From Candidatus Terraquivivens tikiterensis (lineage in GTDB: Archaea; Thermoproteota; Nitrososphaeria_A; Caldarchaeales; Wolframiiraptoraceae), in the NCBI GenBank assembly GCA_003056285.1, contig NDWU01000007.1, positions 1-62,509 on the forward strand: a stretch of DNA of 62,509 nucleotides. The letters are read 5' to 3'. The position numbers and the translations under genes were made by a program. This document shows, piece after piece, positions 29,407 through 47,416 of the stretch; position 1 is the stretch's first letter, and every line of letters starts with the position of its first letter. The notes under the pieces are model-generated. The model did not search any database. It saw only the letters and a program-made list of their open reading frames with translations, and had not been told where the DNA came from.

Positions 29407-29769
29407 ATGAGCATAAAGGATGAGGATGTCCAGCGCATGTCCCAAGCCCTGAAGTCCGGCGCGAAGTTAACGTCTGAAGTATGTCCCGTATGCTCAAGCC
29501 CGATCTTTGAAATAAAGGGAGAGCTGTGGTGCTTAAAATGTAATAAAAAGGTCGTTAAGGTGAGGGAAAATTCAGAAGTCGTCGACGCCATGCTACCGTA
29601 CACCCTAAACAATTTGAGCGCGGTCGTCGTTGAGAAGATAGAGCAGCTTTCCGGTCTACTTTTAAGGCTTACGGAGCTTTCTGATATAAAAAACATGGCG
29701 GATACGCTCTCAGCCCTCTTAAGTGTCCTTTCACAGAGTGAAAGCTTAAAAGAGAAATTGCGCAAGTAG
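29407..29769 (+). CDS. UPF0148 / autoantigen p27-like zinc-ribbon protein
   Basis: This 120-residue protein has a single zinc ribbon (VCPVCSSPIFEIKGELWCLKC, residues 22-42), preceded by a short helix (MSQALKSGAKLTSEV) and followed by a helical tail. This is the layout of the archaeal UPF0148 family (Sjogren's syndrome/scleroderma autoantigen 1-like). Function is unknown. It borders the predicted replication origin. Confidence 0.85.
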   Translation: MSIKDEDVQRMSQALKSGAKLTSEVCPVCSSPIFEIKGELWCLKCNKKVVKVRENSEVVDAMLPYTLNNLSAVVVEKIEQLSGLLLRLTELSDIKNMADTLSALLSVLSQSESLKEKLRK

Positions 29770-30077
29770 CCTGTGAAGCTTTGAACTGCCGAACCTTACT
29801 CCTGTGATACCAGAATGATTCTTTTTGTGTATATTCTTTAAGTATCGGATAGTATACTTTAACGCCATGTGAACGTGATTCTCGTGGAAATAGGACCCAC
29901 GACAGACGACCGCTTAACCAGTTTCTGATCATTTTAAATTATATTTAACGAACATCTTCCATCTAATGAGTAAAGTTTATCGTTTAAGGTCTGATGATGC
30001 CCTCTTGATTTATGCGATCTTCCATTCACCGCCTCCTTCACAAAACTTCAAAGGGCGTGCTGCCACGCACCCTCCAA

Positions 30078-30103
30078 CTTTCCATGAGAAATGGAGGGGT
30101 GTC
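30078..30103 (+). repeat. Origin recognition box 1 (ORB-like)
   Basis: The core is TCCATGAGAAAT, two variable bases, then AGGGGTGT. It follows the archaeal ORB pattern of a TTCCA-like half, a GAAA centre and a GGGGT G-string that is bound by Orc1/Cdc6. It matches ORB2 at 20 of 22 positions. Confidence 0.8.
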
Positions 30104-30252
30104 AAAAGCCAAGTTCGTTAACTGTGAAGGACGATTATATTGGTTTTTTCGTAAAAAATCGCTAGAAAACGAGCCAGTTGGTTGTTTAGACCGTCGTTTT
30201 ATTCTCAACCTGTGAAGTTTTTCTTTTTTCTTGGTTTTCAACGGAGGGGGAT

Positions 30253-30275
30253 ACACCCCTTGATTTCTCATGGAG
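30253..30275 (-). repeat. Origin recognition box 2 (ORB-like), inverted
   Basis: Read on the minus strand it repeats the ORB1 core with only the two variable bases changed (CA instead of GG). It is followed by a C-rich TATCCCCC. The two boxes have their G-strings facing each other across about 150 AT-rich bases. Confidence 0.8.
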
Positions 30276-30428
30276 GTCATCGTTCCCAGCTTTTTGGCTA
30301 CCGTTGACCTTATGTTTAGGGTTGTTAGGATTTTTTGTTTAAAAAAATAAACAATGAAATTTTTTCAACGAACAAGAGATGACCGAACAGAGAATAACGG
30401 TTTGTTCAAGAAAAAGAGATGAGGAACA

Positions 30429-31700
30429 ATGAACAGAGAAATAGATTTCCAGCAGAAAGGGTGGGGTGTCCAGCTAGACCCCCTATCTGACCTTATCTCC
30501 GCATCATCCAAAAAGGGGTTGTTTAAGAATAGGAACGTGCTAAGGTCAGATTACTTACCCAACAACCTACCACATAGATGGGAGCATATTAGGCGGCTGG
30601 GCGAGATACTTGCTCCATCTTTCAACAACGCTAGACCGTCAAACGTCTTCATATACGGTAAGACGGGTACTGGTAAGACGGCTGTGGTTAAGCACACGTT
30701 TAAGCGATTCAACGAGGAGACCGTTCGTAAGAATTTACCTTTAAAATTCATATACATCAATTGCCGAATTGCAGGCACGGAGTATCGGGTCCTGGCGGAG
30801 CTTTGTGCTGCTATAGGGCAAAAAGTGCCGTTCACGGGCCTATCGAAGGCTGAAGTTTTCAATAGGTTCGTATCCAATCTTTCCTCATCCAACTTGATGG
30901 TGGTTGTATGCTTGGACGAGGTCGACATGCTCGTGAAAAATTTTGGAGACGACCTACTCTACGAGCTCACAAGGGTTAATGAATCCCTTGACGGTGGGCA
31001 GGTGGCTATCGTCGGCGTATCGAACGACTTGATGTTCAAAGAGATGCTTGACCCTAGGGTCTTGAGCAGCCTAAGCGAGGAGGAGATAGTCTTCCATCCA
31101 TACACTGCATCCGAGCTTGTGGATATCTTGAGCGAGAGGGCCGCCCTTGCCTTCAACGAAGGTGCTGTCTCTCAAGAGATAATAATGCTATGCGCTGCGC
31201 TTGCGGCTGCAGAGCACGGCGATGCTAGAAGAGCCTTAGACTTATTGAGGGTGGCCGGCGAGGTTGCAGAGAGGGCTGGAGCTCAGAAGGTCGAGGAAAA
31301 ACACGTAAGGGTCGCTCAAGGGATAATCGAGAGAGGAAGGGTCTTCGAGGCGCTATCATCCCTTCCCCTTCACAGTAAGCTCGTTTTGCTTTCTGTAGTT
31401 TTAACGATGAAAAATGGAAAAGAGATAACTTCTGGGACCTTGTACGCGGTCTACAAAGAGCTATGCGAGCTGCTCGGCATGGAGCCATTGACTGACAGAA
31501 GGACGAGTAGCCTACTATCCGAGCTAAACATGCTAGGTGTATTGGATTGTGAGCTCGTAAGTCTTGGGAGGTACGGTAGGACCAGAAAGGTATTCCTCAC
31601 GTTGCCCTTGGACGAGGTCGTAGGCGTCTTTGAGAAGGACGAAGTCCTATCAAACATGTTGGGGTACGTGCCCACCTCCCTCAAAAAACGTAACGCATAA
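30429..31700 (+). CDS. orc1/cdc6: Origin recognition protein Orc1/Cdc6
   Basis: This 423-residue AAA+ initiator binds ORB elements and loads the MCM helicase. It has an N-terminal LPHRWEHIRRLGEILAP, Walker A (YGKTGTGKTAVVKH), Walker B (MVVVCLDEVDML), sensor 1 (AIVGVSNDL), the sensor 2 region GDARRALDLLRVAGEVA and a C-terminal winged helix. All parts are intact. It starts with ATG at 30429 behind a GATGAGG site. It lies immediately beside its predicted target, as is common in archaea. Confidence 0.97.
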   Translation: MNREIDFQQKGWGVQLDPLSDLISASSKKGLFKNRNVLRSDYLPNNLPHRWEHIRRLGEILAPSFNNARPSNVFIYGKTGTGKTAVVKHTFKRFNEETVRKNLPLKFIYINCRIAGTEYRVLAELCAAIGQKVPFTGLSKAEVFNRFVSNLSSSNLMVVVCLDEVDMLVKNFGDDLLYELTRVNESLDGGQVAIVGVSNDLMFKEMLDPRVLSSLSEEEIVFHPYTASELVDILSERAALAFNEGAVSQEIIMLCAALAAAEHGDARRALDLLRVAGEVAERAGAQKVEEKHVRVAQGIIERGRVFEALSSLPLHSKLVLLSVVLTMKNGKEITSGTLYAVYKELCELLGMEPLTDRRTSSLLSELNMLGVLDCELVSLGRYGRTRKVFLTLPLDEVVGVFEKDEVLSNMLGYVPTSLKKRNA

Positions 31701-31733: not shown

Positions 31734-33212
31734 TTGGTGGCCTTAAACGACGGTAGAAAAATAATCCTGACGGCTTTAAAGGGCGGTTACCATTTAACTG
31801 AGGAAGCTTTAGAGATATTGAAAAAATCGGAAGACCCTATCGGGACGCTGAACACAGTTATAGATTACGTAAAAAAGACGAACCCTAGCTGCGTCGTACT
31901 CGATGGAGAACTGATAAGGGCTGTTATCAAGCAAACGGGAAAATTGCAGGAACCCGAACCTGTACAAGAGGAAGAGCCCATTGTATACGCGTGCCCCGAG
32001 GTAAAAATCATCCACCATTATCCCGAGGATATCAGGATCGAAGGGCGTTTCGAAGAATTCTACAGGTACTTCCACAGTCGTTACATGAAGCTTAGGAAAA
32101 TACTCGAGGATAGGGGTATCAAATTCATCCCCCTATCCGAAATCGTAAAGATGAAGAAAGATCAGGAGGCTACTGTCGCAGTCATGGTGCTGGATAGAAA
32201 GGATACGGAGAGGGCCATCGTATTCGAATGCGAAGACCCATCGACCACTGCGACCGTTCTTGTTCCGAAGAAGGCTGGAGAGGTTCTCGCGAAGGCTGAG
32301 ACTGTATTGGTAGACTGCGTGGTTGGTATGAGGCTAAGAAAGGTCAACGATACGGTCATCGTTCAGGATATATTACACCCAGACGTTCCGATAAATCAAA
32401 AGCACGCATCCTCAGGACCCGACATGTACGTGTGCCTGATATCAGACATACACATCGGAAGCAAAAATTTCCGGAGAGACCTATTCGAATCGTTCCTTGA
32501 TTGGATAAACAGGGATAGGGATGGTGAGGTCAAAAGGATAGGGTGCATCGTCCTGTGTGGGGATCTGGTCGATGGCGTAGGCGTATATCCCGGGCAGGAA
32601 AAGGAGCTTGAGGTTGTATCGGTAAACGAGCAATTCTATGCCGCGGCCAAGATTTTATCCGAAATCCCTGAACGCATCGAACTCGTATATCTGCCTGGTA
32701 ACCATGAGCCGGTTAGGAAAGCGCTGCCCCAGCCCCCGGTCCCGGATCCTTACAAAAAAATCCTGGAAAGTGGGCGGAAGCTAAAGTTTGTTGGAAACCC
32801 CGCAAAAATTTTAATCGGAAATAGGCTTTTGCATCTGTACCACGGCCAGAGCCTCGACGACCTAATACAGATACTCCCAAGCGTTTCGTACAGTACGCTA
32901 CACGAAAACATAGGAAAGGTCCTCGAGGCCATGCTACAAGCCAGGCATCTGGCACCATGCTACGGTCAGAATACGCCCCTCCTGCCCCTTGACAGCGACC
33001 CCTTGGTAATCGAGGAGGTGCCCGACGTTCTCTGCACGGGCCATGTTCACGTAGCGGGGGTTAAGTCCTACAAGGGCGTGCTGCTCATAAACTCGGGCTG
33101 CTGGCAGGAACAAACATCGTTCCAGCAAAGCGCCGGCCTTAAACCTACTGTCGGAACCGCCGTACTCGTGAATTTGGCTGACATGTCGACAAAGTTAAAG
33201 CTCTTCGGTTGA
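31734..33212 (+). CDS. polB: DNA polymerase D small subunit (DP1)
   Basis: This 492-residue exonuclease subunit of family D polymerase has an N-terminal helical region, an OB fold and a calcineurin-like phosphodiesterase domain. The phosphodiesterase motifs are complete: LISDIHIGS, VLCGDLVDGVG, YLPGNHEP, the LYHGQS histidine and CTGHVHVAG, so 3'-5' exonuclease activity is likely. The predicted start is a TTG; no better start is seen. PolD is absent from Crenarchaeota, which helps to place the organism. It follows orc1 by 33 bases and may be co-transcribed. Confidence 0.96.
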   Translation: MVALNDGRKIILTALKGGYHLTEEALEILKKSEDPIGTLNTVIDYVKKTNPSCVVLDGELIRAVIKQTGKLQEPEPVQEEEPIVYACPEVKIIHHYPEDIRIEGRFEEFYRYFHSRYMKLRKILEDRGIKFIPLSEIVKMKKDQEATVAVMVLDRKDTERAIVFECEDPSTTATVLVPKKAGEVLAKAETVLVDCVVGMRLRKVNDTVIVQDILHPDVPINQKHASSGPDMYVCLISDIHIGSKNFRRDLFESFLDWINRDRDGEVKRIGCIVLCGDLVDGVGVYPGQEKELEVVSVNEQFYAAAKILSEIPERIELVYLPGNHEPVRKALPQPPVPDPYKKILESGRKLKFVGNPAKILIGNRLLHLYHGQSLDDLIQILPSVSYSTLHENIGKVLEAMLQARHLAPCYGQNTPLLPLDSDPLVIEEVPDVLCTGHVHVAGVKSYKGVLLINSGCWQEQTSFQQSAGLKPTVGTAVLVNLADMSTKLKLFG

Positions 33213-47342: not shown

Positions 47343-47416
47343 TGGGGCCGCTGGGATTCGAACCCAGGACCTCGCGGGCCCGAGCCGCGAATCATACCAT
47401 GCTAGACTACGGCCCC
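47343..47416 (-). tRNA. tRNA-Pro (anticodon CGG)
   Basis: A 74-base cloverleaf is visible without an intron. The acceptor stem GGGGCCG pairs with CGGCCCC, the anticodon stem CGCGG with CCGCG around loop CTCGGGC, and the T arm is CTGGG TTCGAAT CCCAG. The anticodon read from the loop is CGG, specifying proline. The CCA end is not encoded. The D stem has one mismatch. Confidence 0.93.

Follow-up and report, generated by a model that had tools for sequence, protein, structure and literature searches.

A very probable oriC1-type replication origin in Candidatus Terraquivivens with an ORB element within the initiator's own codons

The orc1 locus and its inverted ORB pair

The window analysed here, a stretch of 62,509 nucleotides, is one whole contig (G000:C32) of a 1.54-Mb MAG that is 97% complete and comprises 39 contigs. 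The MAG belongs to the genus Ca. Terraquivivens, of the group known as "Aigarchaeota". As an earlier note made from the letters alone had described, an orc1/cdc6 gene is preceded here by a gap of 659 nt, which we measured at positions 29770–30428, and has the gene for the small subunit of DNA polymerase D (DP1) nearby. The window's Orc1 is 89–94% identical to those of Candidatus Terraquivivens ruidianensis, tengchongensis and yellowstonensis and of one further MAG, and 63–68% identical to those of MAGs named Calditenuis, Calditenuaceae, Aigarchaeota, Caldarchaeum and others. The principal features are as follows.

30429–31700, + strand: orc1/cdc6 initiator gene (Orc1-1 type), 423 aa (Pfam Cdc6_C 1e-29, Cdc6_lid 5e-26)
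31734–33212, + strand: DP1, DNA polymerase D small subunit (Pfam DNA_pol_E_B 1e-21)
30081–30102, + strand: ORB A, TCCATGAGAAATGGAGGGGTGT; G-string directed right, toward B; PWM score 29.5 bits
30253–30274, − strand: ORB B, TCCATGAGAAATCAAGGGGTGT; G-string directed left, toward A; PWM score 25.1 bits
30447–30468, + strand: ORB C, TTCCAGCAGAAAGGGTGGGGTG; orc1 codons 7–14, peptide FQQKGWGV; PWM score 29.2 bits, also a pattern match
30103–30252, no strand: A–B interval, with two TGTGAA boxes; the core as first proposed
30275–30446, no strand: B–C interval, proposed unwinding region, which also holds the start codon and, presumably, the orc1 promoter

The best matches to the window's Orc1 in the PDB are ORB-bound structures, 2qby_A (2e-111) and 2v1u_A (2e-107), and in alignment the protein retains three of the four ORB-contacting arginines, the equivalent of ApeOrc1 R367 being Leu. 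The only other Orc1/Cdc6 paralogue found in the genome (G000:C22:59172-60275, locus L142), which is 31% identical, matches 1fnn best, retains one of the four arginines in alignment, and has no ORBs ahead of its gene, orc1-2; it is possibly a non-initiator regulator. A regular-expression check of the wH arginines across relatives left the RR pair mostly unmatched and carries no weight. A DP1 homologue lies downstream of orc1 in 37 of 51 loci, and a PWM scan found no ORB inside the DP1 gene of the window. The far side of the putative origin is flanked by a small protein with a Pfam Auto_anti-p27 match (120 aa, positions 29407–29769, + strand), a homologue of which is encoded upstream of orc1 in 29 of the 51 loci examined. 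Our Rfam scan of the window found no element in the gap; its only match is a tRNA-Pro (CGG) at positions 47343–47416 on the − strand.

The two 22-base elements that the earlier note had reported are real, inverted and 150 nt apart, with 20 of 22 bases identical, and its coordinates for them were off by at most 3 bases. These elements, ORB A and ORB B, are the most alike pair among the ORBs. No A/B-like match arose in 100 shuffles of the window, and a search of the 1.54-Mb genome at up to 3 mismatches found no copies beyond A and B. The pair stands before orc1 in all five same-genus genomes, 171–172 nt apart start to start; across the order A(+) occurs with B(−) in 38 of 42 genomes, and the start-to-start spacing is 147–174 nt in nearly all of them. 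An alignment of the upstream regions of six genomes of the genus revealed conserved blocks at both ORBs and at TTAACTGTGAA inside A, as well as a conserved TTCTCAA..TGTGAA inside B. In most of the order the conservation of ORB A equals that of ORB B, and the role of A may exceed that of an accessory site. At two loci of family f3 (L084 and L088), the far ORB A is reversed and B and C retain their orientation, which suggests that the orientation of A is under less constraint than that of the core pair B/C.

ORB C within the codons of orc1

Using a PWM grown from the ORB sites of the genus, we detected a third, (+)-strand ORB where the initiator gene begins in all genomes of the order that carry this orc1. 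The earlier note had counted two ORBs; there are three in the window, A(+) B(−) C(+), and C had been overlooked because it is sited in coding sequence. The PWM gave no fourth match above 9 bits in the window's 62.5 kb, and no match above 10 bits at 193,330 control positions downstream of gene starts. When 61 genomes were scanned with the pattern TYYCANNNGAARNNNNGGGGTG, there were 48 matches, nearly all of them at orc1-1 (the exceptions seen were in G047:C7 and in a second orc fragment in G020), compared with 1 among the matches listed for the reversed control.

ORB C stands in the same orc1 reading frame in 42 of 42 genomes of the order, where it is typically read as x-TTY-CAR-NNG-AAR-NNN-NGG-GGT. 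Codon 3 of this reading specifies any of eight amino acids (W, L, R, S, Q, G, E or K), and its last base is G in all 42 genomes. With expectations taken from the codon usage of the same genes, which are nominal because the genomes are related, a third-base G in codon 3 was found in 30 of 30 non-Trp cases (11.1 expected), codon 6, which ends in G in 42 of 42 genomes, did so in 33 of 33 non-Trp cases (14.8 expected), and codon 7 (Gly) was GGT in 42 of 42 (9.8 expected). At positions where the ORB is degenerate, codon third bases in C vary freely. No comparable column, with at least 5 amino acids and a single third base shared by 95% or more of the genomes, occurs among some 330 codon columns downstream, which are ungapped and, in the case of the later ones, aligned only roughly. 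That many different codons share one third base would be hard to explain by descent alone, and on this codon evidence selection is acting on ORB C at the DNA level, inside codons, while the amino acids vary.

At roughly 20 ORB-bearing loci outside the order we found either the whole A(+) B(−) C(+) triad or just B(−) C(+). At these loci, which include one named Bathyarchaeota (L078), C is as a rule upstream of the gene and non-coding, the start codons being unclear in a few cases (for example L178 and L035). The coding overlap therefore looks derived within the order, the reading frame of orc1 now appearing to run through C. Alignments with solved Orc1 structures begin only at residue 29–30, and C therefore encodes a tail outside the common fold. 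It could be argued that C is a chance by-product of a conserved N-terminal peptide, [FL][QH]xKxxG, of which the F/L, Q/H, K and G are well conserved. We give this explanation almost no credence, however, since codon 3 varies in its amino acid yet always ends in G, codon 6 likewise always ends in G and the Gly of codon 7 is always GGT, since site C is present in non-coding form outside the order, and since the peptide lies outside the solved fold. Leu is specified at codon 3 of C (by TTG or CTG) in 14 of the 42 genomes, and an internal TTG start may exist in those 14; the other 28 have no possible start at that codon. At one locus (L028) there is no clear start codon ahead of C.

TGTGAA boxes and the proposed unwinding interval

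Around and to the left of ORB A lies a series of short boxes.

29730–29735, − strand: TGTGAA box where the upstream gene ends, forming the left edge of the cluster (cluster scan)
29772–29777, + strand: TGTGAA box directly after the upstream gene (genus alignment and cluster scan)
29868–29873, + strand: TGTGAA box (motif cluster scan)
30037–30042, − strand: TGTGAA box left of A (TTCACA on the + strand); reads TTCACAA without variation in the genus and keeps register in several families
30123–30128, + strand: TGTGAA box, TTAACTGTGAAGG; invariant in six genus members, in register across the order
30211–30216, + strand: TGTGAA box, AACCTGTGAAGTT; conserved in the genus except for one TGTAAA, in register across the order

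These six copies, between positions 29730 and 30216, form the only TGTGAA cluster of the window, and the sole cluster in 400 kb of G004:C1 is likewise at the origin locus; in the sampled part of G024 the largest cluster is at this locus, with smaller ones elsewhere. The density of boxes is 13.3 per kb in the A–B interval (38 genomes) and 6.8 per kb over the 300 nt to the left of A, as against 0.33 per kb in B–C, 0.8 per kb in orc1 and backgrounds of 0.41 (G004) and 0.75 (G024) per kb. Boxes recur in register at about +8 to +17, +72 to +81 and +92 to +110 to the right of the end of A, and at about −40 to −59 and −201 to −215 to the left of its start. Arrays around and left of A, found also in triad-bearing loci of other classes, are present at loci L003–L033, L082–L095, L162–L174, L201 and L078, the last being the Bathyarchaeota locus. 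Among loci outside the order, those that have the triad carry 4.4 boxes on average and the others 0.5 (Mann–Whitney p = 2e-7, for loci that are not independent). At Sulfolobus-like loci ucm is present and the boxes are almost absent.

Orc1-2 is a candidate binder of the boxes because Orc1-2 of Sulfolobus binds a hexamer, ANTTTC (PMC9738581). Nearly every genome of the order carries an orc1-2 gene, and some box copies read TTTCCTGTGAAG at the same place as TTTCCAGTGGAG in relatives. The boxes may thus be sites for Orc1-2, or degenerate mini-ORBs for Orc1-1, and not those of a new factor, an explanation that we regard as a serious contender at somewhat less than even odds: TTCCTGTGAA differs at, among others, the two bases that are invariant in ORBs (the A of TCCA and the G of GAA), and families that lack the boxes also have second Orc paralogues.

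We compared the two intervals between ORBs as candidates for the unwinding region. The 60-mer at positions 30310–30370, within B–C, is among the 0.1% least stable of the window, whereas the dip in stability at 30110–30170, within A–B, is milder (1.3% level). The A+T content is 65% in B–C and 58% in A–B, with B–C the richer in 34 of 38 genomes of the order, and the six-genome alignment of the genus contains a conserved A/T block at 30325–30375. The least stable 60-mer of the 29.7–30.6 kb region, at 29928–29987, lies left of A and outside both ORB intervals.

The Sulfolobus-like loci of family f20, whose Orc1 shares 68–78% identity with the N-terminal portion of Orc1-1 from S. solfataricus (2qby_A), provide a point of reference. 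Their ORBs run (−), (+), (+) toward the gene, with the G-strings directed away from the DUE, and B would be the counterpart of the (−) ORB3 of such loci. The ucm string TTATACAAAC is found upstream of orc1 at the Sulfolobus-like loci L178, L180, L181 and L200, and at L180 its coordinates place it midway between the (−) and the first (+) ORB, in keeping with the published account of Sulfolobus oriC1, in which ORB3–DUE–ORB2 is essential (PMC12141716). Taking the outward-pointing polarity of the f20 core pair together with the AT-richness and instability of B–C, we place the core at B–C, where it would overlap the presumed orc1 promoter; the inverted A/B pair of the earlier layout stands, and its placement of the core at A–B is probably wrong.

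It is conceivable that the origin is instead one of two ORBs, with the facing A and B flanking the unwinding region and C minor or purely regulatory. A and B are, after all, the most alike and keep their spacing across nearly all of the order, and the interval between them is fairly AT-rich too, with a stability dip of its own. We nevertheless consider this arrangement unlikely. The Sulfolobus-like DUE with its ucm lies between outward-pointing ORBs, making it the equivalent of B–C and not of A–B; C is kept in every one of the 42 genomes at the cost of codon freedom; B–C exceeds A–B in A+T in most genomes; and A is reversed at the two f3 loci.

Origin assignment and comparison with known origins

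The locus combines an adjacent initiator-type orc1 with three ORBs that have a dyad core and GGGGT (PWM scores of 25–30 bits), with inverted ORBs around an AT-rich region and with a position conserved across related genomes, as is expected of an oriC1, and its ORBs are consistent with the archaea-wide ORB motif (PMC4164010). The earlier proposal of a replication origin beside orc1 is strongly supported by the uniqueness of the elements in the genome, their conservation across the order and the initiator type of the Orc1, and the locus is very probably the chromosome replication origin of this uncultured hot-spring archaeon. The genome shows one ORB-bearing origin and may have origins of another type. 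We looked for replication-linked GC skew, both raw and at strand-split third codon positions, across 400 kb surrounding the locus in a congener and across a sample of about 24% of a closed genome of the order, and found none. Skew has no power as a test for an origin here because no stretch examined showed a replication component; low skew is common in archaea (PMC12999951).

The ORBs might alternatively be operators through which Orc1 controls its own gene, with no origin involved, given that the presumed promoter and the start codon of orc1 lie between B and C, and that in Sulfolobus Orc1-2 regulates transcription and binds the promoter of its own gene (PMC9738581). We judge this very improbable: A and the TGTGAA cluster reach some 350–700 nt upstream, past the needs of any promoter, the same arrangement has been proven to serve as an origin in Sulfolobus (PMC12141716), and the genome has no other ORB site at the sensitivity used.

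We infer instead, with a probability of about 0.72, an oriC1-type origin in which Orc1-1 would bind A(+), B(−) and C(+), B and C would be the core, C would double as codons and the left module would be accessory. On this model B and C form a divergent pair around the AT-rich promoter interval, equivalent to ORB3–DUE–ORB2 of Sulfolobus, which would direct MCM loading and melting in B–C. C would be read twice, as an initiator-binding site and as orc1 codons 7–14. The Orc1-bound origin would also cover the promoter and start codon of orc1 and thereby dampen Orc1 synthesis, and the left module, ORB A with the TGTGAA boxes, may be bound by a second factor. More tentatively, and with rather less confidence than an even chance would warrant, the findings raise the possibility of a physical overlap of origin and initiator gene in one archaeal order, in which a core ORB has been overprinted on N-terminal codons, replicator DNA dictates protein, the binding of the initiator gates its own expression, and the TGTGAA array, shared with Bathyarchaeota, marks a new origin factor that replaces the UBP of Sulfolobus.

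The origin is thus of a known kind, oriC1-type, with an unusual detail, namely a core initiator site in the initiator's own codons throughout the order, together with a conserved motif array. A literature search that had most subscription papers outside its reach found no described aigarchaeal replication origin; it also found no ORB inside cdc6/orc1, with subscription papers, probably including the original Sulfolobus/Pyrococcus ones, largely outside it, and priority is unproven. For a large part of the TACK archaea that has not been cultured, the locus supplies an origin model that is compact and open to test, and in it replicator DNA and the coding sequence of the initiator clearly occupy the same bases. 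Ori-Finder 2 scans only intergenic sequence (PMC4164010), and intergenic-only tools of this sort would miss an overlap like that of ORB C. The authors who described UBP raised the question of analogous origin factors in further archaeal lineages (PMC12141716), and the TGTGAA box, as a conserved origin motif, makes this question directly testable.

Among known origins, that of Sulfolobus/Saccharolobus (oriC1, with ORB1-3, DUE and ucm, and with Orc1-1 and UBP) shares with the locus an adjacent orc1-1 and ORBs with a dyad and a GGGGT string. Unlike at that origin, DP1 is adjacent here, and crenarchaea are not known to have PolD. Both have a divergent (−)/(+) pair around an AT-rich core and a further short conserved motif near the core (PMC12141716). 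The core ORB on the gene side is inside orc1 codons here, whereas all ORBs seen at the Sulfolobus/Saccharolobus oriC1 are upstream, and the far side here differs in having an inward-pointing ORB A with TGTGAA boxes. On reading the sequence we saw no ucm-like string in the A–C stretch of the window, where TGTGAA boxes stand instead. The locus thus does not fit a Sulfolobales-type oriC1 with ucm and UBP, no ucm having been seen and ORB C lying within orc1 codons.

Linkage of cdc6 to DP1, long known in Euryarchaeota (PMC2643942), is also found beside the oriC of Thermococcales, in a cdc6–DP1–DP2 island. There an ORB and mini-ORBs have been noted inside DP1 (PMC2643942), so that the in-gene copies lie in DP1 and not in the first codons of the initiator; DP1 in the window holds none. 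The oriC1 of Haloarcula hispanica likewise has inverted ORBs around an AT-rich region, its G-strings are essential and auxiliary repeats lie just inside its ORBs (PMC3936714). Those repeats are G-rich in Haloarcula, whereas the boxes here are TGTGAA, and, unlike here, no ORB has been described within the initiator gene. Directly inside ORB B in the window there is a G-rich run, GGAGGGGG (positions 30241–30259), that is able to pair with the CACCCC end of B, and comparable runs in congeners are reminiscent of the G-rich repeat located inside the ORBs of haloarchaea.
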